A DNA stretch of 18,641 nucleotides from an uncultured Oscillospiraceae bacterium. Lineage in GTDB: Bacteria > Bacillota > Clostridia > Oscillospirales > Oscillospiraceae. Where the stretch lies: positions 1 to 18,641 of the forward strand of contig CAKTHW010000026.1 of the NCBI GenBank assembly GCA_934565425.1, in the 5' to 3' direction. How positions within the stretch are numbered: the first letter of the stretch is position 1; every line of letters begins with the position of its first letter. A model generated the notes under the pieces. That model saw only the letters and a list, made by a program, of their open reading frames with translations, was not told where the DNA came from and made no database searches. This document shows, in pieces, positions 1-13,896 of this stretch. A program made the translations under genes and the position numbers.

Positions 1-228
1 AAGGGCAAGATCATCCCCGGCGGCGTCCCCTTCTTCAACGCCGAGAGCATGACCAGCCGCGGCCCCTATCAGGCGGTCATCGAGAAGGAAGCCCCTGCCG
101 CCGGCTGCCACGTGGCCAAGCTGGGAACGGAGTTCTATGAAGCCTACGACGGCGCGCACCCCACGCTGAACGGCATGAACTACATCGCTCAGTGCTGGAT
201 CGAGGCCATCGAGAAGGGCGACCAGTAA
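1..228 (+). CDS. C-terminal end of a probable SGNH/GDSL-type hydrolase (5' partial)
   Basis: This frame is open from the window edge to a TAA at 226-228 and gives 75 residues; the start lies upstream of the window. Near the end it reads YDGAHPTLNGMNYIA, which resembles block V of SGNH/GDSL hydrolases. In that block a D-x-x-H pair supplies the catalytic Asp and His, followed by 'P-x-x-G' and a final amphipathic helix (here IAQCWIEAIEKGDQ). The Ser, Gly and Asn blocks would lie upstream and cannot be seen, so the assignment rests on one motif. Substrate and location are unknown. A strong hairpin terminator follows 14 bases after the stop, so this is the last gene of its unit. Another alpha/beta hydrolase or an unrelated family remains possible. 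Confidence 0.5.
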   Translation, partial: KGKIIPGGVPFFNAESMTSRGPYQAVIEKEAPAAGCHVAKLGTEFYEAYDGAHPTLNGMNYIAQCWIEAIEKGDQ

Positions 229-242
229 GGAACTATAGCAAC

Positions 243-274
243 AAAGAGCGCACCCGCTTGGGTGCGCTCTTTTC
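243..274. terminator. Bidirectional rho-independent terminator
   Basis: A perfect 13-bp stem (AAAGAGCGCACCC at 243-255, its complement at 260-272) closes a GCTT tetraloop. On the plus strand it runs into TTTT, which suits the upstream gene ending at 228. On the minus strand the stem is followed by a weaker T-rich stretch just past the copA stop at 277. One hairpin therefore probably ends both convergent genes. Confidence 0.85.
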
Positions 275-276
275 AT

Positions 277-483
277 TCACTGGATGCCCTTGACGGTATA
301 ACCTGCGTCCTCTACCGCCTTCTTCAGCACCGCGTCCTCCACCGGCTCCGTGCTGGTCACGGCGGCAGTACCCTTGTCCAGGTCTACCACAGCCTGGACG
401 CCGGGCAGGTCGTTGAGGGCCTTTTCCACGTGGGCTTTGCAATGGGCACACATCATGCCCTCGATGTTCATGGTCTTGTTCAT
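277..483 (-). CDS. Possible free CopZ-like copper chaperone from an internal start inside copA
   Basis: An in-frame ATG at 483-481 would give a 68-residue protein, [15 protein letters not shown] onward, ending at the copA stop. This is the usual full length of a stand-alone CopZ, with an M-x-C-x-x-C copper site and a complete beta-alpha-beta-beta-alpha-beta pattern. A perfect AGGAGG lies 8 bases upstream (497-492), optimal spacing for initiation. CopZ normally carries Cu(I) to the membrane pump, so free and tethered forms from one mRNA would make sense. The alternative is that the ribosome binding site is a relic of a former copA-copZ gene pair now fused and is not used. The sequence alone cannot tell these apart. 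Confidence 0.5.
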
Positions 484-2802
484 TCCGGGTTCCTCCTGTT
501 TTTTGATTTCAGATTCCACTTTTGTTGTATCGTTGGCCTTCACGCTGACCTCTTCCCTAGGCTCCGGACGGAACCGGTTGAGGCGCAGGGCGTTGGAGAC
601 CACGCAGACGCTGGAGAGGGACATGGCTGCCGCCCCCAGCATGGGGTTCAGGGTCAGTCCCAGGCCGCTGAACACACCGGCGGCAATGGGGATGCCGATG
701 ACGTTGTAGATAAACGCCCAGAACAGGTTTTCCTTGATGTTGCGCACCACCCGACGGGACAGGCGCACCGCCTCCACCACGTCCTGAAGGGAGGACTTCA
801 TGAGCACCACATCCGCCGCATCCAAGGCGATGTCCGCCCCGGCGCCGATGGCGATGCCCACCTCGGCACTGGTCAGGGCAGGGGCGTCGTTGATACCGTC
901 CCCCACCATGGCCACGGTGCCGGTCTGGGACAGACGCTGTACTTCCGCCGCCTTATCCGCCGGCAGCACACCGGCACGCACCTGGTCGATGCCCACCTGC
1001 TTGGCCACCGCCTGAGCGGTGCGGGGATGGTCACCAGTGACCAGAGCGGTCTGGATGCCCAACTCATGGAGCCGGGCGATAGCGTGGGCGCTGTCCGGCT
1101 TGATCTGGTCGGCCACGGCGATGATGCCCAGGGCTTTGCCGTCCAGGGCAAAGTACAAGGGGGTCTTGCCCTCACCGGCCAAGCGTTCCCCCTGCTGTGC
1201 CAGGGTACCGACAGGGATGTTCTGTTCTTCCATCAGCTTCAGATTGCCGCCCATAGCGGTCTTGCCGTTCAGCTGGCCGCTGAGGCCATGGCCGGGCAGA
1301 GCAGTGAAACCGGTCAGCTCCGGTGCGACCACGCCCTGTTCCTTGCCCCAGGCCACTACGGCGCTGGCCAGGGGATGTTCGCTCTTGGCCTCCAAAGCCA
1401 GGGCGGTCTGGAGCAGGGTCTCCTGGGAGACGCCCTCTGCCGGGATCAGGTCGGTCACGTGGGGCTTGCCTTCGGTGACGGTGCCGGTCTTGTCCAGGAC
1501 GATGATGTTGGTCTTGCCCATGGCTTCCAGAGAAGCGGCGGTCTTGAACAAAATCCCCGCCTTGGCGCCGGCGCCGCTGCCCACCATGATGGCCACCGGG
1601 GTAGCCAGACCCAGGGCGCAGGGGCAGCTGATGACCAGGACGCTGATGGCACGCGCCAGGGCAAAGCCGATGGTCTGCCCCATCGCCAGCCAGACGATGC
1701 CGGTGATAAGCGCCAAAAGGAGCACAGTGGGCACAAAGACGGCGGACACCTTGTCGGCAATCTTGGCGATGGGCGCCTTGCTGGCGGCTGCCTCCTCTAC
1801 CAGGCGGATCATCTGGCTAACGGTGGTGTCCCCGCTGACCCGCATGGCCTGACAGGTCAGGAAGCCGCTCTGGTTGGTGGTGGCAGCGGAGACGGTGCTG
1901 CCCGGCCCCTTGTCCACCGGCAGGCTCTCGCCGGTGAGCATGGATTCGTCCACGGCGCTCTCGCCCTGGACTACCTTGCCGTCCACCGGGATGCTCTCCC
2001 CGGGGCGCACCAGGAACTGGTCGCCTACCACCACGTCCTCCACCGGGATCTTGACCTCCTGGCCGTCCCGCAGGACGGTGGCCTGTTTGGGGGTCAGATC
2101 CATGAGGCCGCGGATGGCGTCGGTGGTCTTGCCCTTGCTGTAGGCTTCCAGGGTCTTGCCCACGGTGATGAGGGTCAGGATCATGGCAGCGCTCTCGAAA
2201 TAGTACTCGTCCATATAGGGCATAGCCGCTTCCGGTCCGCCCTGGGCCATGGCAGAGCTGGCCAGGAAGAGGACGACAGTGCTATATAGGAACGCGGCTG
2301 CGGAACCCATGGCGACTAGGGTGTCCATGTTGGGCGCTCGGTGGAGCAGCCCTTGGGTGCCGCTGATGAAATACTTTTGGTTGATGACCATGACCATGGC
2401 GGTGAGCAGCAGCTCGAACAGCCCCATGGACACATGGTTCCCCGCCAGGAAGGGCGGCAGGGGCCAGTTCCAGAGCATATGTCCCATGGACACATACATC
2501 ATAGGCAGCAGGATGCAGATACTGGCGATGAGACGGCGCACCATCTTGGGCGTCTCCTTGTCCTCCAGCTCCGCCGGTGTGCTCTTGGCCTTCTCCGCCG
2601 TGGCGGGAGACGCGCCGTAGCCTGCCTGCTCCACGGCCTGGCAGATGCTCTCGGCGGTGGCGGGGGCTTCGTAGTCCACCCGCATCTGGTTGGTCAGCAG
2701 GCTCACGGTCACCTGTTTCACGCCGGGCACCTTGGATACGGCTCGTTCCACGTGGGCGCTGCAGGCGGCGCAGCTCATGCCGGTTACGTTAAACTGTTCC
2801 AT
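277..2802 (-). CDS. copA: Cu(+)-exporting P1B-type ATPase with a C-terminal CopZ-like chaperone domain
   Basis: This 841-residue inner-membrane ATPase pumps Cu(I) out of the cytoplasm. Domains in order: an N-terminal HMA domain (GMSCAAC, Cys11 and Cys14), transmembrane helices from about 90 to 220, the actuator TGES at 290-293, the copper-translocating CPC at 393-395, the phosphorylation motif DKTGT at 437-441 (Asp437), the P1B signature SEHP at 474-477, and the hinge GDGINDAP at 634-641. The last membrane pair carries YN (699-700) and MSLSS (727-731), as in Cu(I) pumps. A charged linker (about 745-773) then leads to a second HMA domain (MMCAHC, Cys785 and Cys788). That tail is a whole CopZ of 68 residues and has its own ATG and AGGAGG. 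The start at 2802 is chosen because TTGGAGGTCAAC precedes it; an upstream in-frame ATG at 2862 lies inside the leader and lacks this site. Copper is preferred over silver or zinc by motif, though silver may also be carried. Confidence 0.95.
484..497 (-). promoter_or_regulatory. Internal ribosome binding site in front of the CopZ-like domain
   Basis: On the minus strand AGGAGG (497-492) is followed by eight bases (AACCCGGA) and then the in-frame ATG at 483. In the fusion frame these bases encode Gln-Glu-Glu-Pro-Gly in the linker. The match to the Shine-Dalgarno consensus and its spacing are as good as those of true gene starts in this window. Confidence 0.6.
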
Positions 2803-2832
2803 GTTGACCTCCAATCTATCTCTGTGCTTCTT

Positions 2833-2854
2833 GTTAGGGTTACCTTTCCCTAAC
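2833..2854 (-). repeat. Inverted repeat 2 in the copA leader
   Basis: GTTAGGG (2833-2839) and CCCTAAC (2848-2854) form a perfect 7-bp inverted repeat around eight bases. It lies about 55-75 bases downstream of the predicted copA transcription start and 30 bases upstream of the ATG. It could be a protein-binding site or an mRNA hairpin. A nested GGTTA/TAACC pairing is also possible. Confidence 0.5.
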
Positions 2855-2866
2855 CATATCATCCAT

Positions 2867-2899
2867 AATCCCCTAATTTCCTATCAGGTAAGGGGGATT
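2867..2899 (-). repeat. Inverted repeat 1 just downstream of the copA promoter
   Basis: AATCCCC (2867-2873) and GGGGATT (2893-2899) are perfect 7-base arms separated by 19 bases. The repeat begins roughly 10 bases after the predicted transcription start. The C-tract/G-tract character recalls operators of the CsoR copper-sensor family, but the spacer is longer than I would expect, so a leader hairpin is equally plausible. Confidence 0.45.
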
Positions 2900-2914
2900 T
2901 TCGCTTCTGGGCTC

Positions 2915-2943
2915 ATGATACTGCATTCTGCCAGTTCTGTCAA
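2915..2943 (-). promoter_or_regulatory. Sigma-A-type promoter of copA
   Basis: On the minus strand TTGACA (2943-2938, 6/6) is separated by 17 bases from TATCAT (2920-2915, 5/6). Transcription would start near 2908 and leave a leader of about 105 bases before the copA ATG. The -35 lies 18 bases beyond the terminator of the upstream L,D-transpeptidase gene, so copA is its own unit. Confidence 0.8.
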
Positions 2944-2960
2944 GCCGTCCAACTGCATGA

Positions 2961-2994
2961 AAAAATCCGAGGAAATTTTCTTCCTCGGATTTTT
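2961..2994 (-). terminator. Rho-independent terminator of the L,D-transpeptidase gene
   Basis: A perfect 14-bp stem (2961-2974 with 2981-2994; core ATCCGAGGAA) closes a 6-base loop. On the minus strand it extends into a run of six Ts. It sits 20 bases after the stop codon at 3015 and separates that gene from the copA promoter. Confidence 0.9.
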
Positions 2995-3014
2995 CTCGTC
3001 TGTTTCAAAAGCCG

Positions 3015-4466
3015 TCAGTACACCACAACGGCGCTGCCAATCTCCAGCGTGTTGTACACGGTCCTGGCCGCTGCCTTAGGCATATTCACGCAGCCGTGGG
3101 AGCCGTTGGTCTTGTAGATCTGGCCGCCGTACTCGTGCCGCCAGCCGTCGGCGTCGTGCATACCCACGTTGCCGCAATAGGGCATCCAATAGGTGACGGG
3201 AGAGCTGTAGCCCATGGTCTCGATGGTGCCCAGGACGGCCGGGCTCTTCTTTGCGTCGATGGCCCAGACGCTGCCCTTGGGGGTGCCGTTGCCCTTGCTG
3301 ATGTTGCCGGTGACCACCGGGGTCTCCAAGATCTCCTTACCGTTCTTATAGCACCACAGGGTCTGCTTGCTGATGCTGATCTCCACGTAAGTGCCGCCGA
3401 TGTCGTCCTTGGCGCGGGACTTGGCGCTGTACAGGTAGGCCGGTTCGATCTTCTTCTCTGCGCCGGACTCCAGCAGGGGGATGAGTTCTTCCGTGGTCTT
3501 ATCCCGGTTGATGCACCAGCCGTAGTCACCGCCGGTGAGCTTTCTGGTCTTGCCGTCGTGGCATTTCACCGCATGAGTCAGGCCGAAGGTGTCGGTAGCG
3601 TAGGCCAGCTTGGTGGTAACGAACTCCTTGACCTTGGTCTTATCCAAGCCGTAGTTGCCCTTGTCGTCCTGGGCGATCATGGCCATGATGTCCTGGGCGG
3701 TGACCTCAATGGTGCGGTCGTCAAAGTCGTATGTAATCTTGGCCTTCAGGTAGCCGTTGACCTTCTCCAGCTGTTCCTTCAGGTTCTGGTCGTTCTCGTA
3801 CACGGAAGGCTTTTTGTAGCACTCGCTGGCCTCGAAGTCGATCTCAGTCACGCCAGTCTTGATACCCTCCTGGATGAGCTTGAGGGCCTTCTCGTTGTCC
3901 AGCTCCCGTCCTTCGCTCTCCTTCTGGATCTGGAACTGGGTGTCGCCTGCGACGATCTGGGCGTCGGTGGGCGCTTCTGCATAGGCGGGGTTGAAGGCGC
4001 TGAGGTGGCTGATGACGGTCTCGAATTTGGTCTCGTCATAGCTCATGTTGGCCTGGACGGTCAGCTCGGTGCCCCGGATCTGGGACCACAGCCAGCCGTA
4101 GGGGGAGATGCTGTCCAGCAGGGCTGCCACTTGCCCGTTGTCCACGTAGGTCAGGTCGATGTCCCCGCCGTTGATGGTCTCGGTCTTGCCGTCCCGCTCC
4201 TTCAAGGTCAGCACATAGTTCTTGGCCTGGAGGTTCATGGCGGTGTTCACTTCCTGGACGGTCTTGCCGCTGCAATTGAGGCCGTTGATGGTGGTACGGC
4301 CCAGGAAACGGCCTTTGTAGGAGCTTGCGATGGTGAAGTACACCACCAGGAGCAGCACCACGATGACGCCGATGGCAGCCAGCAGCAACCCCTTGGGACT
4401 GCTCTTGACTTTCGTGCCTCCCCTGGCACGGACGTGCTTGCCGGAACTTGCTCTTTTGGGTTTCAT
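3015..4466 (-). CDS. Membrane-anchored L,D-transpeptidase (PG_binding_4 + YkuD)
   Basis: This 483-residue protein has a basic cytoplasmic N-terminus, one membrane helix at about 26-47 and a long extracellular part. The middle (about 60-340) resembles the duplicated peptidoglycan-binding domain (PG_binding_4) found before the YkuD domain in Enterococcus faecium Ldtfm. The C-terminal YkuD domain holds the catalytic signature SHGCVNMP, with nucleophile Cys459 and His457, and an upstream MHDADGWR block (His437). Such enzymes make 3-3 cross-links in peptidoglycan or attach proteins to it and are poorly inhibited by most beta-lactams. The ATG at 4466 is preferred because AAGGGG lies eight bases upstream; a GTG at 4475 would abut that site. 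The gene has its own promoter and terminator. The family call is firm; the physiological role is inferred. Confidence 0.92.
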   Translation of the reverse strand: MKPKRASSGKHVRARGGTKVKSSPKGLLLAAIGVIVVLLLVVYFTIASSYKGRFLGRTTINGLNCSGKTVQEVNTAMNLQAKNYVLTLKERDGKTETINGGDIDLTYVDNGQVAALLDSISPYGWLWSQIRGTELTVQANMSYDETKFETVISHLSAFNPAYAEAPTDAQIVAGDTQFQIQKESEGRELDNEKALKLIQEGIKTGVTEIDFEASECYKKPSVYENDQNLKEQLEKVNGYLKAKITYDFDDRTIEVTAQDIMAMIAQDDKGNYGLDKTKVKEFVTTKLAYATDTFGLTHAVKCHDGKTRKLTGGDYGWCINRDKTTEELIPLLESGAEKKIEPAYLYSAKSRAKDDIGGTYVEISISKQTLWCYKNGKEILETPVVTGNISKGNGTPKGSVWAIDAKKSPAVLGTIETMGYSSPVTYWMPYCGNVGMHDADGWRHEYGGQIYKTNGSHGCVNMPKAAARTVYNTLEIGSAVVVY

Positions 4467-6728: not shown

Positions 6729-7415
6729 ATGGAACATAACTACCGTATTTTGATTATAGAAGACGACCCAGTCATCGCCCGTGTGGTGCAGAACCACCTG
6801 GAGGGGTGGGGGTACGTGGCCCACTGCGTGACGGATTTCTCCGATGTTTTGACCCAATTCACCGATTTCGACCCCCAGCTGGTGCTGCTGGACATCTCCC
6901 TGCCCTTTTTCAACGGCTACCACTGGTGCGCTGAAATTCGCAAGCTCTCCCACGTACCCATCCTCTTCCTGTCCTCCGCCTCGGACAACCTGAATCTCAT
7001 CACCGCCATGAACATGGGCGGCGACGACTTCGTGGCCAAGCCCTTCGAGCTGCCGGTACTCACCGCCAAGATTCAGGCGCTGCTCCGCCGGGCCTATGAC
7101 TTCGCTGCGCCCACCACCCTGCTCCGCTGCGGGGACGCGGTGCTGAACACGGCGGACGGGAGCTTGCAGGTGAAGGGGCAGCGGGTGGAGCTGACCAAGA
7201 ATGAGTGGAAGATTTTGCAGCTGCTGTTGGAGCAGAAGGGCAAAGTGGTGTCCCGCCAGGCGCTGATGACTCGGCTGTGGGAGTCGGATGCCTTCATCGG
7301 GGAGAACACCCTGACGGTGAATGTGACCCGGCTGCGCAAGAAGCTGGAACAGGCGGGGCTGCCTGGGCTCATCCGCACCAAGAAGGGTGTGGGGTATGTG
7401 GTGGAGGAGGGCTGA
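6729..7415 (+). CDS. OmpR-family response regulator, BceR-like
   Basis: This 228-residue cytoplasmic protein has a receiver domain (about 5-118) and a winged-helix DNA-binding domain (about 128-226). Receiver residues are intact: acidic pair Glu11/Asp12, phosphoacceptor Asp55 in LLDISLP, Ser82 and Lys104 in AKPFE. The effector domain shows VELTKNEWKILQLLL and the wing RTKKGVGYVV. GGAGG (6720-6724) sits four bases before the ATG. The stop is separated by one base from the kinase start, so the two are translationally coupled. The partner kinase is of the intramembrane-sensing type, and the next two genes are a BceAB-type transporter preceded by a BceR-type box. The regulator most likely activates that transporter when peptide antibiotics are present. 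Confidence 0.92.
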   Translation: MEHNYRILIIEDDPVIARVVQNHLEGWGYVAHCVTDFSDVLTQFTDFDPQLVLLDISLPFFNGYHWCAEIRKLSHVPILFLSSASDNLNLITAMNMGGDDFVAKPFELPVLTAKIQALLRRAYDFAAPTTLLRCGDAVLNTADGSLQVKGQRVELTKNEWKILQLLLEQKGKVVSRQALMTRLWESDAFIGENTLTVNVTRLRKKLEQAGLPGLIRTKKGVGYVVEEG

Positions 7416-7416
7416 C

Positions 7417-8409
7417 ATGAAGTTCTTTTTCTCCTATCTCCAACGGCGCTGGAAGGGCATCTGTGTGGTGTGCCTGCTGTGTGCCTCCACGGCGCTGATG
7501 TTCTATCTCTACGACTTGGATTGGGAACCCTTTACCTACATCCTGGTCTTCTGGCTCTTCCTCTGTCTGCCAGTCTTTTTGCTGGACTTCCGCAACTATC
7601 GCCGCCGTCACCGTGGCCTGGTTCAGCTGGCGCAGAACCCAGAAGAGGCCGCCCCGTGCCTGCCCCCCTCCCACAACCTGGTGGAGCAGGACTATCAAGC
7701 CCTCATCCACGCCATCTCGGACAACCACACCCAAGTGACCGCCGACTACGCCGCTCGTGACCAAGAGCTGACCGACTACTACACCCTGTGGGCGCATCAA
7801 ATCAAAACCCCCATCGCCGCCATGGGCCTGATCCTCCAGGAGGAATCGGTGCGGCCGGAGCTGCTGGCGGCGGAGCTGGGGAAGGTGGAGGACTATGTGG
7901 AGATGGCGCTCTCTTATCTGCGTCTGGACAGCGACAGCAGCGACTATGTGCTCCGCCGGTACGACCTGGACGGCATCCTCCGCTCCTGCGTGCGCAAATA
8001 CGCCCGGCTATTCATCTTGAAGCGCATCGAGCTGGAGTTGGAGGAGACCCACGCCAAGGTGCTCACCGACGAGAAGTGGCTGGCCTTTGTCATCGGTCAG
8101 CTCCTCTCCAACGCCCTGAAATATACGCCGGAGCAGGGACGCATCTCCGTCACCTGGGCGGACGCCACCCAGACCCTGACCATCGGGGACACGGGCATCG
8201 GCATCCGTCCGGAGGATCTGCCTCGGGTCTTCGAGAAGGGGTTTACGGGGCACAACGGACGGGAACAGAAGAAATCCACCGGCATCGGCCTCTATCTCTG
8301 CCGACGGGTGCTGGGCAAGCTGGGGCACACCATCGTCATCACGTCCATCCCTGGTCAAGGGACGCAGGTGCAGATCGGCCTGGCGGCGGCGGAACAGGTG
8401 GTGGAATGA
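7417..8409 (+). CDS. Intramembrane-sensing histidine kinase, BceS-like
   Basis: The protein has 330 residues and only two membrane helices (about 14-32 and 38-57) joined by a short loop (YDLDWEP), so there is no external sensor domain. This is the hallmark of BceS-type kinases, which sense peptides through their partner ABC permease. The dimerization helix carries HQIKTP with phosphoacceptor His127. The ATPase domain has the N box (IGQLLSNALKY), G1 (GDTGIGI), F box (FEKGFTGHNGR) and G2 (STGIGLYLC). The ATG at 7417 follows GGAGGAGG (7403-7410) with six bases between and lies one base after the regulator stop. An in-frame start 30 bases upstream would overlap the regulator gene and has no such site. 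Confidence 0.92.
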   Translation: MKFFFSYLQRRWKGICVVCLLCASTALMFYLYDLDWEPFTYILVFWLFLCLPVFLLDFRNYRRRHRGLVQLAQNPEEAAPCLPPSHNLVEQDYQALIHAISDNHTQVTADYAARDQELTDYYTLWAHQIKTPIAAMGLILQEESVRPELLAAELGKVEDYVEMALSYLRLDSDSSDYVLRRYDLDGILRSCVRKYARLFILKRIELELEETHAKVLTDEKWLAFVIGQLLSNALKYTPEQGRISVTWADATQTLTIGDTGIGIRPEDLPRVFEKGFTGHNGREQKKSTGIGLYLCRRVLGKLGHTIVITSIPGQGTQVQIGLAAAEQVVE

Positions 8410-8426
8410 CCCTTCTGACGACAATG

Positions 8427-8440
8427 TGACAGGATTGTAA
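8427..8440 (+). promoter_or_regulatory. BceR-type binding box upstream of the transporter genes
   Basis: TGACA-GGAT-TGTAA matches the known BceR/BraR-type consensus TNACA-N4-TGTAA exactly. It lies 17 bases after the kinase stop and 84 bases before the ABC ATPase ATG. A further TGTAA half-site occurs at 8456-8460. A weak -10-like TAGGAT (8494-8499) lies downstream, with no good -35, as expected of an activator-dependent promoter. Confidence 0.75.
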
Positions 8441-8447
8441 GGTTCGG

Positions 8448-8487
8448 AGCCGGAATGTAAGCCAAAGCGATGGCAAGCGTTCCGGCT
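8448..8487. repeat. Inverted repeat between BceR box and ABC gene
   Basis: AGCCGGAA (8448-8455) and TTCCGGCT (8480-8487) are perfect 8-base arms around 24 bases, with an inner GCC/GGC pair (8461-8463, 8472-8474). No T-run follows, so it is a poor terminator. It may be part of the activator or repressor site, or a hairpin partly separating the regulator and transporter units. Confidence 0.4.
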
Positions 8488-8524
8488 TTGGGTTAGGATA
8501 GAGGACGAAAAGGAGGAATGAACC

Positions 8525-9292
8525 ATGTCTCTGTTAGAAGTGCGTCATTTGAAAAAAGTTTACACCACCCGTTTCGGCGGCAACCAGGTAGAAGCCCTGC
8601 GCAACGTGAATTTCACGGTGGAAGCGGGAGAATATGTGGCCATCATGGGCGAGTCCGGCTCCGGCAAGACCACCCTGCTGAACATCCTGGCCGCCTTGGA
8701 TCGTCCCACCTCCGGTGAGATCCTGCTCAACGGAAAGTCTCTGTCCAAAATCTCTCAGAACAAGCTGGCCGCCTTCCGGCGGGACAATCTGGGCTTTGTG
8801 TTCCAGGAGTTCAACCTGCTGGACACCTTCTCCCTCCAGGACAACATCTATCTGCCCCTGGTGCTGGCCGGTGTGCCCTATGAAGAAATGGAACGGCGCT
8901 TAAAACCCATCGCTGAGACCCTGGACATCAGCCACATCTTGAAAAAGTTCCCCTACGAGGTCTCCGGCGGTCAGAAGCAGCGTGCCGCGGTCGCCCGTGC
9001 CCTCATCACCAAGCCCCAGATCATCCTGGCCGACGAACCCACCGGCGCCCTGGACTCCAAGGCTTCGGACACCCTGCTGCGCCTGTTCGGCCAGGTGAAC
9101 GGAGCGGGTCAGACCATCCTCATGGTCACCCACTCCGTCAAGGCCGCCAGCCACGCCAAACGGGTGCTCTTTCTCCAGGACGGAGAGGTGTACCACCAGC
9201 TGTATCGGGGCGACCAGACATCGGAACAGCTCTATGCCAAGATCTCCGACACCCTGACCGTTCTCACGCAAGGCGGTGAGCTCCATGCGTAA
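8525..9292 (+). CDS. ABC transporter ATPase, BceA-like peptide-detoxification type
   Basis: The 255-residue ATPase is complete: Walker A GESGSGKT (42-49), Q-loop Gln94 (FVFQEFNLL), signature VSGGQKQR (146-153), Walker B IILADEPTGALDSK (from 166) and switch His203. The MacB/LolD/BceA-like ATPases share the EPTGALD form. AGGAGG (8511-8516) lies eight bases before the ATG. Its reading frame overlaps the permease start by eight bases, so the two are co-translated. With the permease it should free targets such as lipid II-cycle intermediates from bacitracin- or lantibiotic-like peptides and act as the sensor for the kinase. The exact peptide cannot be predicted. Confidence 0.94.
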   Translation: MSLLEVRHLKKVYTTRFGGNQVEALRNVNFTVEAGEYVAIMGESGSGKTTLLNILAALDRPTSGEILLNGKSLSKISQNKLAAFRRDNLGFVFQEFNLLDTFSLQDNIYLPLVLAGVPYEEMERRLKPIAETLDISHILKKFPYEVSGGQKQRAAVARALITKPQIILADEPTGALDSKASDTLLRLFGQVNGAGQTILMVTHSVKAASHAKRVLFLQDGEVYHQLYRGDQTSEQLYAKISDTLTVLTQGGELHA

Positions 9293-11318
9293 GATCACCT
9301 TCTATCCCCACCTGGCGATCACCAATGTCCTGCGCAACAATCAGTTCTATCTCCCCTACCTGCTGACCAACATCGCCACCGTGGCCATGTTCTACATCCT
9401 GACCTACCTGTCCTTTGATGACACCCTGGCCAGCTTCCCCAGCGCCAACAACGTGCAGCTGATGATGGGGCTGGGCTGCGTGGTGGTGGCCATCTTCTCC
9501 GCCATCCTGGTGTTCTACACCAACAGCTTTGTGATGAAGCGCCGCCAGCATGAACTGGGGCTGTACAGCATCCTAGGCATGGAGACTCGACACATCGCCC
9601 GCCTGCTTCGGGTGGAAGCGCTGTTTTTGGGGCTGTTCAGCCTGGTCTGCGGTCTGGCTGCCGGAATCATCCTGTCCAAGCTCATGCTGATGCTGCTCTT
9701 TAAGCTCCTCCACTTTCCCGTGTCCCTTGGCTTCTCCATCAGCATCGTTGGCATCGCCATGACCACCGTTCTCTTTGCCGTTCTCTTTCTGCTGGTGCTG
9801 CTGCGCAACCTGATCCAGCTGCACAAGTCCAAGCCAGTGGAGCTGCTGCGCAGCTCCTCAGTAGGCGAGCGGGAACCCAAGGTCAAGTGGCTGCTGGCTC
9901 TGGTGGGCGTGGTGACCCTGGTGGCCGGTTACGTCATGGCCAACACCATCCAGTCCCCTTTGCAAGCGCTGACCCGTTTCTTCTTCGCCGTTGTCCTGGT
10001 CATCATCGGCACCTACTGCATCTTCACCGCCGGTTCCATCGCCGTCCTGAAGCTGCTCCGGGCCAACAAACATTACTACTACAAGCCCCAGCACTTTACC
10101 ACCGTCTCCGGCCTCCTCTACCGGATGAAGCAGAACGCGGTGGGTCTGGCCAGCATCTGCATCCTGTCCACCATGCTCCTGGTCACCGTCTCCACCACCG
10201 TCTGTCTCTACTTAGGAGTGGAGACCTCCCTGAAGGAATCCTTCCCCCGGAACATCAACTATACCATTGCCCTGGACGAAACCCAGACTGCGGAGGATGT
10301 CGTCAAGACCATGGAACAGGCGATCAAAAAGACCGGTCACCAGGCCGAGAACGTCCTGACCTACACCAGCCTCTCCTTTCCTGTCGTCCTCTCCTCCTCC
10401 CATGAGCTGACCCTGGACGGCGACGTCATCCGCAGCACCAGCATCGTCAGCACCGTCTGTGTCATCACCCAGGAGGACTACAACCGTTACAACCAGACGC
10501 CCCTCTCCCTCTCCAAGGGTCAGGTGGCCTGCTACAGCGAGGGGGCGGAGCTGGAGAACAACTTTCAGCTGGGCGACCAGACCTTCACCATCGCCCAGCG
10601 CCTGACGGACACCCCCCTGCCCTTTTACGACGCCTTTCGCAACCTGACCAACTATGTCAGCATCCACTACCTGGTGGTGCCCGATGAGGCGACTTTGCAG
10701 GAGCTGTATCAGAAGGAGACCAAGGCGCTGGCCACGGACGATAACACCACCCGGTTGGCCGACCTCACCTACACCTACTGCTTTGACATGGATGCTGCCG
10801 ACGAAGAACTGGAAACCTTCTACAACCAGCTTTCCCCGAAGTTTCACACGACCTACTCCTACGGCTGCCGCCAATTCATCTCTCAGGAGTTCTATGCCAT
10901 CTATGGCGGGTTCCTTTTCTTAGGGTTGTTCCTGGGACTGCTCTTTCTGCTGGGTACTGTACTCATCATCTATTTCAAGCAGATCTCCGAAGGGTACGAT
11001 GACCAGAAACGGTATGAGATCATGCAGAAGGTGGGGCTGAGCGAACGGGAAGTCCGCCGCAGCGTCCACAGTCAGATCTTGCTGGTCTTTTTCCTCCCCC
11101 TGGTCACTGCCATGATCCACGTCTTTGGCGCCTTCCACATGATCACCAAAATGTTGCAGCTGTTCCTGTACGCCAAAACCATGACCACTTCCTTCTTCCT
11201 GACCTGCACTCTGGGCACTCTGGCTGGATTTGCCGTCATCTATGCCCTGGTCTACTGGGCCACGGCGCACACCTACTATAAAATCGTGCGGGTGAAGCAA
11301 GCCGACCCCCGTTTTTAA
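9285..11318 (+). CDS. BceB-like ABC permease (FtsX-type, 10 membrane helices)
   Basis: The 677-residue membrane protein has about 10 helices: one near the N-terminus (FYLPYLLTNIATVAMFYIL), several between 60 and 300, and three in the C-terminal part. A large external domain (about 315-535) lies before the last group of helices, as in BceB, where it determines the peptide recognized. The late helix followed by IYFKQISEGYDDQKRYEIMQKVGLSEREVRRSV is the conserved FtsX-domain and coupling region of this family. The ATG at 9285 overlaps the ATPase gene by eight bases; a GTG at 9276 in the same frame is an alternative. The external domain is the part to compare with known systems, since the ligand may be new. 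Confidence 0.93.
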   Translation: MRKITFYPHLAITNVLRNNQFYLPYLLTNIATVAMFYILTYLSFDDTLASFPSANNVQLMMGLGCVVVAIFSAILVFYTNSFVMKRRQHELGLYSILGMETRHIARLLRVEALFLGLFSLVCGLAAGIILSKLMLMLLFKLLHFPVSLGFSISIVGIAMTTVLFAVLFLLVLLRNLIQLHKSKPVELLRSSSVGEREPKVKWLLALVGVVTLVAGYVMANTIQSPLQALTRFFFAVVLVIIGTYCIFTAGSIAVLKLLRANKHYYYKPQHFTTVSGLLYRMKQNAVGLASICILSTMLLVTVSTTVCLYLGVETSLKESFPRNINYTIALDETQTAEDVVKTMEQAIKKTGHQAENVLTYTSLSFPVVLSSSHELTLDGDVIRSTSIVSTVCVITQEDYNRYNQTPLSLSKGQVACYSEGAELENNFQLGDQTFTIAQRLTDTPLPFYDAFRNLTNYVSIHYLVVPDEATLQELYQKETKALATDDNTTRLADLTYTYCFDMDAADEELETFYNQLSPKFHTTYSYGCRQFISQEFYAIYGGFLFLGLFLGLLFLLGTVLIIYFKQISEGYDDQKRYEIMQKVGLSEREVRRSVHSQILLVFFLPLVTAMIHVFGAFHMITKMLQLFLYAKTMTTSFFLTCTLGTLAGFAVIYALVYWATAHTYYKIVRVKQADPRF

Positions 11319-11459: not shown

Positions 11460-11489
11460 GAAAACTTGATTGAGAAAGGTGTCTTTTTG

Positions 11490-11726
11490 ATGAAGCCACA
11501 CGTTTGTTTGAATGACCTACAACCCGGTCAGCAGGCCATCGTCCAAGAGCTGCGCTCCACCGGCAGCATCCGCCGTCGGCTGCTGGACATGGGGCTGATC
11601 CGGAACACCGTCGTCCAATGTCTGGGGCGCAGTCCCGGCGGTGACCCCTCCGCCTTCCTCATCCGTGGGGCGGTCATCGCCATCCGGGCGGTGGATGGGC
11701 AGCACATCTGGGTGACTCCTTGCTGA
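11490..11726 (+). CDS. feoA: FeoA, SH3-like ferrous iron transport accessory protein
   Basis: This 78-residue cytoplasmic protein matches the FeoA pattern: LNDLQPGQQAIVQEL, then the R-R-L-L-D-M-G-L-I core (residues about 30-40) and the C-terminal strand FLIRGAVIAIR. FeoA is thought to bind FeoB and support Fe(II) transport. The ATG at 11490 has GAGAAAGG upstream at workable spacing. A TTG 24 bases earlier in the same frame would place the Shine-Dalgarno inside the gene and is rejected. The stop overlaps the ribosome binding site of feoB, with 13 bases between the two genes, so they form an operon. No FeoC is present. Confidence 0.93.
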   Translation: MKPHVCLNDLQPGQQAIVQELRSTGSIRRRLLDMGLIRNTVVQCLGRSPGGDPSAFLIRGAVIAIRAVDGQHIWVTPC

Positions 11727-11739
11727 GGAGGGACGCTGG

Positions 11740-13896
11740 ATGGGACTGACCAAACACGCTACGGGGACGGGTGCTTTGGACAGTGGCCTGACGGTGCTGA
11801 AACGGTCGCCGGAGGACCGGGTGATCGCCCTGGCGGGCAACCCCAACGTGGGCAAGAGCACCCTGTTCAACGCCCTGACCGGCATGAACCAGCACACCGG
11901 CAACTGGCCCGGCAAGACGGTGGCCAACGCCCAAGGCCACTGCTCCACCGACGCCCACGACTATGTGTTGGTGGACATTCCCGGTACGTATTCCCTGCTG
12001 GCCCACTCCGCCGAAGAGGAAGTGGCCCGCGATTTTCTCTGTTTCTCCCAGCCGGACGCGGTCATCGTGGTCTGCGATGCCACCTGTCTGGAGCGCAACC
12101 TGAATTTGGTACTGCAAATCTTGGAGCTGTCTCCCCAGGTCATCGTCTGCGTGAATCTGATGGATGAGGCTCGCCGAAAGGGCATCTTGCTGGACCTGGG
12201 ACGGCTGTCCAGCCTGTTGGGGGTGCCGGTGGTGAGCACAGTGGCCCAGTGCAAAGCCTCCCAAGCCACCCTGATGGACGCGGTGGATCAGGTGATGGAC
12301 GGGATGCTGGACTGCACGCCCCACCTGGTCACCTATCCGCCGGAAATCGAGCAGGCGCTGTCCCTGCTGGAACCGGAGCTGACCCCTCTGGTGGCAGGCA
12401 CGACCATCCAACCCCGTTGGCTAGCGCTGCAAATGCTGGCGCCGGATGCGACCCTGTTCGAGACCCTCCGACAGCAGTTGGGGGTGGACTGTCTCCACGC
12501 GCTGACCCTGAAAGCCGCTCTGACCAACGCCCACATCCAGCTGGGGCAGGCGGGACTGGACGCCAAGCAGGTGAAGGACGCCATCGTGACCAGCTTGGTG
12601 ACGAGAGCGGAAGCCATCAGCCGTCAAGTGGTTACATACCAACGGGACGGCTGCCACAGCATTGACCGAAAGCTGGATCGCATCCTGACCAGCAAGGGCA
12701 CCGGCTATCCGGTGATGCTGCTGCTCCTGGCGCTGGTGTTTTGGCTCACCATCGCCGGGGCGAATGTGCCGTCCCAGTGGCTGTCCACCTTTCTGTTCTG
12801 GGTGGAGGGACAGCTGAGCCAGCTCTTTGTGACCCTCCACGCACCGGCCTGGCTCCACGGGCTGCTGGTAGACGGCTGTTTCCACGTGCTGGCCTGGGTG
12901 GTGTCGGTGATGCTGCCGCCTATGGCCATCTTCTTTCCCCTGTTCAGCTTGTTGGAGGATGTGGGGTATCTGCCGCGGGTGGCGTACAATCTGGATAAAC
13001 CCTTCCAGAAATGCTGCGCCTGTGGGAAGCAGGCGCTGACCATCTGCATGGGGTTCGGCTGCAACGCCGCCGGTGTGGTGGGCTGCCGCATCATCGACTC
13101 CCCTCGGGAGCGGCTGCTGGCCATCCTGACCAACAGCTTCGTCCCCTGCAACGGCCGCTTCCCCACCCTCATCACCCTGCTGACCCTGTTCTTCATCGGC
13201 ACCGCCGGCGGGTTATGCTCCTCCCTCCTGTCTGCCCTGCTGCTGACCCTGCTCATCCTGCTGGGGCTGGGGGTGACCTTCGCCGTCACCAAGTTGCTGT
13301 CCCAGACCATCCTGAAGGGCGTCCCCTCTTCCTTTACCTTGGAGCTGCCGCCCTACCGAAAACCCCAGATCGGCAAGGTCATCGTCCGGTCCATCTGGGA
13401 TCGCACCCTCTTTGTGTTGGGGCGTGCAGTGGTGGTGGCGGCACCGGCGGGGATGGTGCTGTGGGGGATGGCCAATGTGACGGTGGACGGAGTGAGTCTG
13501 CTGAATCACTGTGCGAACTTTTTGGACCCGTTTGCCCAGCTGATGGGGCTGGATGGCGTGATTTTGGTGGCATTCATCTTGGGATTTCCCGCCAATGAGA
13601 TCGTACTGCCCATCGTCATCATGGCCTATCTGGCACAGGGCAGCTTGGTATCCATGGACAATCTGCTAGAACTAAAAGCTCTGTTTTTAGACCACGGCTG
13701 GACCTGGATCACCGCCGGCTCCACCATGCTCTTCTCCCTCATGCACTGGCCCTGCTCCACCACCCTGCTGACCATCCGCAAGGAGACCCAGAGCTGGAAG
13801 TGGACGGCACTGGCGGCGGTTCTGCCTACTGTCGTCGGGATCGTGTTCTGTATGGTGTTTGCCAATGTGGCGCGGCTGTTCTGTTTCATCCTATGA
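11740..13896 (+). CDS. feoB: FeoB, ferrous iron transporter with N-terminal G domain
   Basis: This 718-residue inner-membrane protein imports Fe(II). The G domain has G1 GNPNVGKS (33-40), the switch I segment HTGNWPGKTV (52-61), G3 DIPG (79-82) and G4 NLMD (139-142). After a helical linker come two Gate-type membrane halves (from about 325) and a C-terminal membrane segment. The membrane part contains a Cys-rich stretch (KCCACGKQALTICMGFGC) and the conserved PRERLLAILTNSFVPCNGRFP, the form common in Clostridia. About 25 residues precede the G domain, which is longer than in many FeoBs. GAGGAGGG (11725-11732) precedes the ATG by seven bases. The gene is convergent with rpoC, and the shared terminator begins four bases after its stop. 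Confidence 0.95.
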   Translation: MGLTKHATGTGALDSGLTVLKRSPEDRVIALAGNPNVGKSTLFNALTGMNQHTGNWPGKTVANAQGHCSTDAHDYVLVDIPGTYSLLAHSAEEEVARDFLCFSQPDAVIVVCDATCLERNLNLVLQILELSPQVIVCVNLMDEARRKGILLDLGRLSSLLGVPVVSTVAQCKASQATLMDAVDQVMDGMLDCTPHLVTYPPEIEQALSLLEPELTPLVAGTTIQPRWLALQMLAPDATLFETLRQQLGVDCLHALTLKAALTNAHIQLGQAGLDAKQVKDAIVTSLVTRAEAISRQVVTYQRDGCHSIDRKLDRILTSKGTGYPVMLLLLALVFWLTIAGANVPSQWLSTFLFWVEGQLSQLFVTLHAPAWLHGLLVDGCFHVLAWVVSVMLPPMAIFFPLFSLLEDVGYLPRVAYNLDKPFQKCCACGKQALTICMGFGCNAAGVVGCRIIDSPRERLLAILTNSFVPCNGRFPTLITLLTLFFIGTAGGLCSSLLSALLLTLLILLGLGVTFAVTKLLSQTILKGVPSSFTLELPPYRKPQIGKVIVRSIWDRTLFVLGRAVVVAAPAGMVLWGMANVTVDGVSLLNHCANFLDPFAQLMGLDGVILVAFILGFPANEIVLPIVIMAYLAQGSLVSMDNLLELKALFLDHGWTWITAGSTMLFSLMHWPCSTTLLTIRKETQSWKWTALAAVLPTVVGIVFCMVFANVARLFCFIL

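Follow-up and report, generated by a model that had tools for sequence, protein, structure and literature searches.

The locus and its internal start signal

The stretch of 18,641 nucleotides analysed here (the window), from an uncultured Oscillospiraceae bacterium (contig CAKTHW010000026.1), carries on its minus strand a copA gene whose product, a copper pump, ends in a second HMA domain; a start codon with a ribosome-binding site of its own lies in frame at the point where this domain begins. Our subject is the possibility, raised in an earlier note on this DNA, that the end of copA is in addition translated alone, as a CopZ-like copper chaperone of 68 residues. The features that bear on it are the following.

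277..2802, minus strand: copA, Cu(I) P1B-type ATPase of 841 residues with N-terminal HMA domain, ATPase and C-terminal HMA domain (open reading frame, Pfam, TIGR01511)
2808..2812, minus strand: GGAGG before the likely main copA start at ATG 2802 (sequence; duplex −10.0 kcal/mol)
484..576, minus strand: charged linker of low model confidence from the last membrane helix to the C-terminal HMA domain, residues about 743-773 (alignment, fold model)
492..497, minus strand: internal ribosome-binding site AGGAGG within the linker codons CAG GAG GAA (duplex −10.3 kcal/mol; kept in relatives)
481..483, minus strand: internal start codon ATG, Met774, beginning of the C-terminal HMA fold (sequence, relatives, fold model)
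277..483, minus strand: C-terminal HMA domain, the predicted free CopZ-like chaperone of 68 residues (Pfam, NCBIfam, PDB matches, fold model)
439..450, minus strand: metal-binding CxxC, residues 785-788, within GMMCAHC (sequence, alignment)

The copA reading frame extends from ATG 2802 to the stop codon at 279-277 (841 codons). The longest open reading frame reaches ATG 2862; ATG 2802, with GGAGG at 2812-2808, is the likely main start. Whole CopA scores 583.9 bits against TIGR01511 (copper-translocating P-type ATPase), above the curated cut-off of 397, and shows two HMA stretches in Pfam, one at each end. The motifs that we take to be diagnostic of CopA (CPC in the membrane, DKTGT, GDGxND, YN and MxxSS) are all present in an alignment of the window with 28 relatives (alignment A1).

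On the minus strand, AGGAGG (497-492) is followed by AACCCGGA and then by ATG (483-481) in the copA frame, with eight bases between the AGGAGG and the ATG. The positions that the earlier note had given for a perfect AGGAGG and an in-frame ATG are thus exact, and the second HMA domain that it had read after a charged linker is confirmed by Pfam, by the alignment and by the fold model. Pairing energies were computed for the duplex with the 16S tail, using what we take to be its sequence; they amount to −10.3 kcal/mol at the internal site and −10.0 kcal/mol at copA's own start. A start codon and a Shine–Dalgarno sequence at proper spacing, situated together at a domain boundary, make up the arrangement by which internal in-frame initiation is recognized.

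Taken alone, the 68-residue tail reaches 63.9 bits against Pfam HMA (cut-off 24.8), and CopZ chains from the PDB (6ff2, 2qif, 1k0v) align within its residues 2-67. The fold model (AlphaFold2 on a 29-row alignment) is of modest quality overall, with a mean predicted local distance difference test (pLDDT) of 72.7 and a predicted template modelling score (pTM) of 0.54. It arranges strands and helices of the C-terminal domain in the order of an HMA domain and lets the first strand begin with the internal Met, number 774 once the last 68 of the 841 residues are counted off. The pLDDT is under 50 over residues 735-772, fitting a flexible linker.

The internal start in relatives

Relatives were collected in several ways. 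A protein search scored at least 7994 relatives, 120 of them among the matches listed; the C-terminal domain was present in all 28 that were aligned with the window, once incompletely. A contig scan with the C-terminal 159 residues (alignment A2) gave at least 592 confirmed places, the best 80 of which were used. The proteins P0021 and P0024 were retained in A1 and omitted from A2 for their chimeric look: both are metagenome proteins that apparently combine a diverged pump part with a tail nearly identical to the window's. A further 293 genomes were drawn evenly from the class of one relative found by the contig scan. Fused copA, that is a full-length match free of stop codons, accounted for at least 100 matches in at least 99 of these genomes, and 17 class matches in which stop codons separate the pump from the HMA represent split copA and copZ pairs. 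A phylum sample of 299 genomes returned 36 matches at 1e-35, 3 of them with stop codons. The additional phylum-wide genes comprised 21 new fused ones, including three near-identical pairs; full-length matches in G396 and G547 were left out.

After removal of repeats, 199 CopA open reading frames were available: 172 fused with GMxCxxC, 17 split, 5 without the domain, and 5 fused with a variant metal motif (L204, L218, L220, L227, L228), the last group being outside the DNA-level scoring. Split copA-copZ loci and fused genes hence coexist, 17 beside 172, which answers a comparison that the earlier note had proposed. The fused copA is annotated as a single protein in Ruminococcus albus 7 and in Roseburia 831b. 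A metal-sensing repressor gene precedes it in the R. albus 7 record, where the internal site reaches −11.1 kcal/mol, and an open reading frame of CsoR-like type, recognized by what is presumably a CsoR motif, lies within 1.5 kb in 33 of the 73 fused loci with sufficient upstream sequence.

A start-type codon stands 5-18 codons before GMxC in 171 of the 172 fused genes (167 ATG, 2 GTG, 2 TTG), and exactly 8 codons before it in 140. At 144 of the 172 domain starts the duplex energy is −8 kcal/mol or better, as compared to 71 of 3746 other internal ATGs in the same genes. This difference is not created by scoring the best start of a window: the same choose-best rule, applied to 3440 random windows of these genes, yields 2.6% at −8 kcal/mol or better, and among the 137 genes with ATG exactly at position −8, scoring that position alone still puts 118 at this level. 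Nor does it come from sampling close to the window, for the signal held when 91 class-wide and 21 phylum-wide genes were scored apart; it is weaker in the phylum-wide set, where ATG is present in 21/21 and −8 kcal/mol or better in 16/21. The mean duplex energy of the internal starts (−9.4 kcal/mol, n = 171) lies between that of copA's own starts (−8.6, 39 measurable) and that of split copZ (−10.4, n = 17).

The core of the site varies, with AGGAGG in 55 genes, AGGAG in 65, GGAGG in 23 and AGGA in 18 of the 172. The conservation of AGGAGG beyond codon needs, which the earlier note had suggested as a check, therefore holds for the site as such, by the codon choice and phase analysed below, and not for the literal hexamer. 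A purely structural reason for keeping the methionine was considered and rejected: HMA2, the second N-terminal HMA of tandem domains in 15 split-form CopAs, has an ATG in range in only 1/15, with a best site of −5.1 kcal/mol.

The folding energy of 60 nucleotides at the internal start averages −3.5 kcal/mol, as opposed to −14.7 kcal/mol around other ATGs, and in 171/171 genes the structure at the internal start is weaker than the median found for up to 15 other ATGs. Its surroundings have a G+C fraction of 0.34 compared to 0.53 around other ATGs. The lack of structure is the weaker evidence because a linker rich in Lys and Glu lowers G+C for protein reasons too. On computation from the DNA, these data show that a site exists at the domain boundary, that its predicted strength and its spacing are normal and that its predicted structure is weak.

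Selection on nucleotides

The same bases are reached in different codon phases, through AAG GAG GAA (KEE), AAA GGA GAA (KGE), CAA GGA GGA (QGG) and others. The 144 GGAG cores are distributed over phase 2 (111 genes), phase 0 (32) and phase 1 (1). We placed these states on a FastTree phylogeny of CopA cores without the linker, which covers 181 of the 199 open reading frames (162 fused, with the phase known in 130, and 19 non-fused) and in which 63 of 178 inner branches are weak. At least 16 phase changes have occurred among the 130 rows with defined phase.

Codon choice at the site departs from each gene's own usage in the direction that preserves GGAG, as summarized here (observed count of total, with expectation in brackets).

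Glu at −4, GAG: 102/112 (56.1)
Lys at −5, AAG before Glu: 64/65 (33.1)
Lys at −5, AAG before Gly: 0/25 (13.1)
Gly at −4, GGA: 35/37 (8.5)
Upper linker (control): Glu GAG 44/195 (98.1); Lys AAG 113/363 (188.1); Gly GGA 19/96 (24.1)
Inside the C-terminal domain (control): Glu GAG 468/900 (433.1); Lys AAG 374/661 (333.1); Gly GGA 87/379 (94.3)

Usage inside the C-terminal domain is thus near expectation, whereas the upper linker shows the trend opposite to that of the site. The 91 class-wide genes and the other 81 each show the bias when taken separately. The start position has a residue entropy of 0.18 bits, against 1.6 at −4, 2.4 at −5 and 3.0-3.9 at the remaining positions of the ten upstream. 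Phase variation, synonymous codon choice and this entropy pattern together make the signal separable from a cause at the protein level.

Synonymous shuffling of the seven upstream codons weakens the mean duplex energy from −9.4 to −5.9 kcal/mol, and permuting the linker codons reduces it to −2.3 kcal/mol. The pooled z-scores are −17 and −37, values that overstate certainty because the genes are related. A chance site in a linker rich in Glu and Lys is contradicted by shuffles, permutations and codon choice alike. What the codon statistics of these genes show is that the internal site is kept by selection acting on nucleotides beyond the protein sequence.

Alternative explanations

Some internal starts are served by internal promoters, and the free chaperone might likewise be translated from a separate short transcript that begins inside copA. 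This is unlikely in the present case: a consensus scan of positions 150-3100, covering a part of the promoter types only, finds no promoter in copA, its sole match being the upstream element.

2915..2943, minus strand: sigma-70-like promoter TTGACA-17-TATCAT, 5' of copA (consensus promoter scan)

The site might also function in elongation. Pairing with the anti-Shine–Dalgarno sequence would then slow the ribosome, giving the membrane part time to fold ahead of the last domain, with no initiation involved, and codons resembling a Shine–Dalgarno sequence would be accounted for in a linker that comes just after the last membrane helix. We regard pausing of this kind as quite improbable. It needs no start codon at fixed distance, yet a start-type codon is present in all but one of the 172 fused genes. 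The spacing from GGAG to the start is 8-9 nucleotides in 115 of 144 cores, as it is in split copZ (12/14), and the strong sites of L061, L137 and L196 are accompanied by GTG (two genes) or a well-placed TTG (one) where ATG has been replaced.

An explanation from the protein would limit the C-terminal HMA to metal sensing or regulation within the pump, its Met and the Glu and Lys before it being kept for protein reasons and the Shine–Dalgarno sequence arising as a by-product. Other Cu-ATPases, Archaeoglobus fulgidus CopA among them, are reported to have C-terminal metal-binding domains, the linker is indeed rich in Lys and Glu, and a regulatory role is compatible with internal initiation besides. 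As the sole explanation it has very little probability, given that variants with Gly for Glu keep the same bases, that synonymous codons preserve GGAG and that synonymous shuffles lose much of the signal.

Finally, a functionless relic of a recent copA-copZ fusion, not yet decayed, could plausibly have been assembled from one of the split pairs that the class possesses with similar signals, but it has next to no probability against a fused copA that is spread over the class sample and a fused or non-fused state that changes 3 times on the tree (a minimum, with 19 non-fused among 181 rows; median end branch 0.21 changes per column), and against a site kept through the phase changes with a codon choice opposite to that of the remaining linker. 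Of the two options which the earlier note had offered, recent fusion is therefore disfavoured, by the class-wide spread, the phase changes and the matching synonymous choices; internal initiation finds support in the relatives, from start codons, strong sites and codon choice.

Exceptions and the question of a separate copZ

Several observations weigh against translation of a free chaperone, beginning with the fact that the entire support for the short product is at the level of sequence. Among the 172 fused genes, L226 is without a start-type codon; L209, L229 and L236 are without the usual ribosome-binding core; and 12 fail to reach −6 kcal/mol. Among the 21 further genes, a site is missing from L313 and L318 and weak in L300, L323 and L324. 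The Roseburia 831b copy is weak (−5.6 kcal/mol), and the domain start lacks a Met in the fused proteins P0023 and P0025. When tested gene by gene, synonymous shuffling gives values below 0.05 in only 11 of 81; single genes are mostly non-significant because much of the signal already lies in the amino acids, so that only the pooled tests are strong. The tail itself stays below the curated NCBIfam cut-offs for CopZ, most closely with NF047957 (67.4 vs 85) and further with NF033795 (60.9 vs 91) and TIGR00003 (50.1 vs 62). The "complete CopZ" of the earlier note is accordingly right as to length and fold and falls short at these curated cut-offs. Fused relatives lacking ATG and AGGAGG, which that note had named as evidence to the contrary, form a minority (4/172 and 2/21, with 3 more weak). 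Judged from these genes, the internal start is strongly favoured and not universal.

Were the internal start indispensable, a separate copZ would be expected in genomes that lack the site. Four of them were examined. In G135, a copZ-like open reading frame lies directly upstream of the site-less fused copA (L209) and scores 62.0 bits with the profile of the C-terminal domain, under the 69-97 bits of all 17 split CopZs; the arrangement looks as if the chaperone were supplied another way. G184 (L229) has an HMA within a 334-residue frame, with 80.9 bits. No separate copZ was found in G221 (L226; best 37.0 bits) or G236 (L236; 54.1 bits, of the membrane-anchored type), which again argues against the proposal.

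A standalone search was made in 32 chosen fused class genomes, where short HMA frames from Pfam, as 37 stretches, were rescored with the C-terminal-domain profile. The HMA lists from an initial set of 15 genomes lay outside this rescoring, and 24 standalone proteins from another search were left aside. A standalone protein in the range of split CopZ was found in 1/32 (G145, 78.8 bits). Other short standalone HMAs in the fused genomes (L241-L277) are mainly of a DCANC type (MKKTYKIEVDCANCANKMEEA...) and a GMMCGMCEAH type with a KKGLF-like tail; membrane-anchored, Cys-rich HMA proteins are also carried, and these HMA families recur.

As a control, 8 genomes were taken in which CopA lacks the C-terminal domain and no copZ lies beside its gene, with a part of their short frames fetched. 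A standalone CopZ (69-97 bits) was present in only 2/8 (G021, G040), and G202 came nearest below the range (66.4 bits). The rarity of a separate CopZ is therefore no proof by itself that the fused domain replaces it, and it may be that many of these bacteria need no CopZ. Absences of a separate copZ are provisional because many of the genomes are draft assemblies, and the source genome of the window may have such a gene elsewhere. Complementarity between internal start and separate copZ is loosely seen, and the evidence for replacement is mixed.

Flanking signals and neighbouring genes

The copA leader contains an inverted repeat, GTTAGGG...CCCTAAC (window 2826-2850, minus strand), seen by eye between the promoter-like site and the start, which is possibly an operator or a leader hairpin. 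Downstream of copA lies a stem of terminator type.

243..272, minus strand: 13-bp hairpin directly 3' of the copA stop, terminator-like stem (no T run by the rule of the terminator scan)

By the T-run rule of that scan, no terminator was found after copA despite the hairpin. On the plus strand at 6729-11318, a response regulator (Pfam) is accompanied by open reading frames read from their translations as histidine kinase, ABC ATPase and large permease; in gene content this looks like an antimicrobial-peptide module of the BceRSAB type. Ferrous iron uptake genes feoA-feoB follow on the plus strand (11466-13896), and next to them rpoC-rpoB on the opposite strand. The best match of the rpoBC region, among plasmid records, is Vescimonas fastidiosa (79.4% identity over 21% of the window).

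Discussion

Based on the collective evidence, copA would act as two genes that share a reading frame, in this bacterium and in many others of its class. From ATG 2802, ribosomes would produce the full copper pump of 841 residues, with HMA domains at both ends; other ribosomes, binding AGGAGG at 497-492, would initiate at ATG 483 and release the last 68 residues alone. The free CopZ-like carrier would deliver Cu(I) to the pump, to which the same domain would also stay tethered via the flexible linker. From the conserved signals, internal initiation on the copA message very likely gives a 68-residue protein beside the pump; this product probably acts as a Cu(I) chaperone, as its domain family suggests, and we infer that it takes the place of the copZ which relatives with split genes encode separately. 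We also consider it likely that in a large share of Clostridia the main copper chaperone lies hidden in copA, with a dedicated start kept since before the lineages diverged, and, as part of the same reading, that copA and copZ have moved between split and one-frame forms in which the chaperone retained a start of its own. The "large share" refers to the class sample, where at least 99 of the 293 genomes have a fused copA, and the claim of a "main" chaperone is weakened by the small number of comparison genomes that have a separate CopZ.

Provided that the proposal is correct, the bacteria that have a fused copA produce a free Cu(I) carrier which present annotation misses, and a copA knock-out in them removes two proteins at once. 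The prediction is testable in culturable gut anaerobes. The codon-level signature can moreover be used in searching for other hidden in-frame genes.

The tail shares length, fold and GMxCxxC with metallochaperones of the CopZ/Atx1 type (NCBIfam NF047957 and NF033795; PDB 6ff2, 2qif, 1k0v); it differs in being encoded within the pump gene and in scoring under the curated CopZ cut-offs. The split copA-copZ operons, in 17 class relatives and in a Staphylococcus warneri record, specify the same two proteins in the same order, with a stop codon and a spacer between the genes as the difference from fused copA. In the 17 class relatives, copZ's own start is placed 8-9 codons before GMxC, with Shine–Dalgarno energies of −5.6 to −13.2 kcal/mol.

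Frameshifting in Escherichia coli copA is reportedly the subject of research papers by Meydan (2017) and Drees (2017). No report of internal initiation or an internal start in copA was found in the open-licence literature, where only a review of frameshifting (PMC5009743) turned up. According to that review, −1 frameshifting in E. coli copA gives a 70-residue product, so that there, likewise, one gene would supply the full pump and a free metal-binding domain of roughly 70 residues. The short E. coli product is encoded in the 5' part of the gene and arises through a frameshift in elongation, whereas the candidate product described here is C-terminal, in frame and equipped with its own start; its domain lies in frame 0 of an uninterrupted open reading frame, which is not the layout of an E. 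coli-type frameshift. Internal in-frame initiation is described for Cas11b within cas8b of Haloferax (PMC11899642): as proposed for copA, an internal ATG serves to translate separately the 3' part of a gene that codes for a large protein. Protein and process are unrelated to copper transport in that case, and the Haloferax site has a variant Shine–Dalgarno sequence, GGATG, only. By analogy, the internal start of fused copA resembles in kind both the frameshifting of E. coli copA and the internal starts of Cas11. It would constitute a second, independent way, besides frameshifting in E. coli, of obtaining pump and chaperone from a single gene, and frameshifting, internal initiation and split genes would then appear as convergent solutions to providing the two in one unit.

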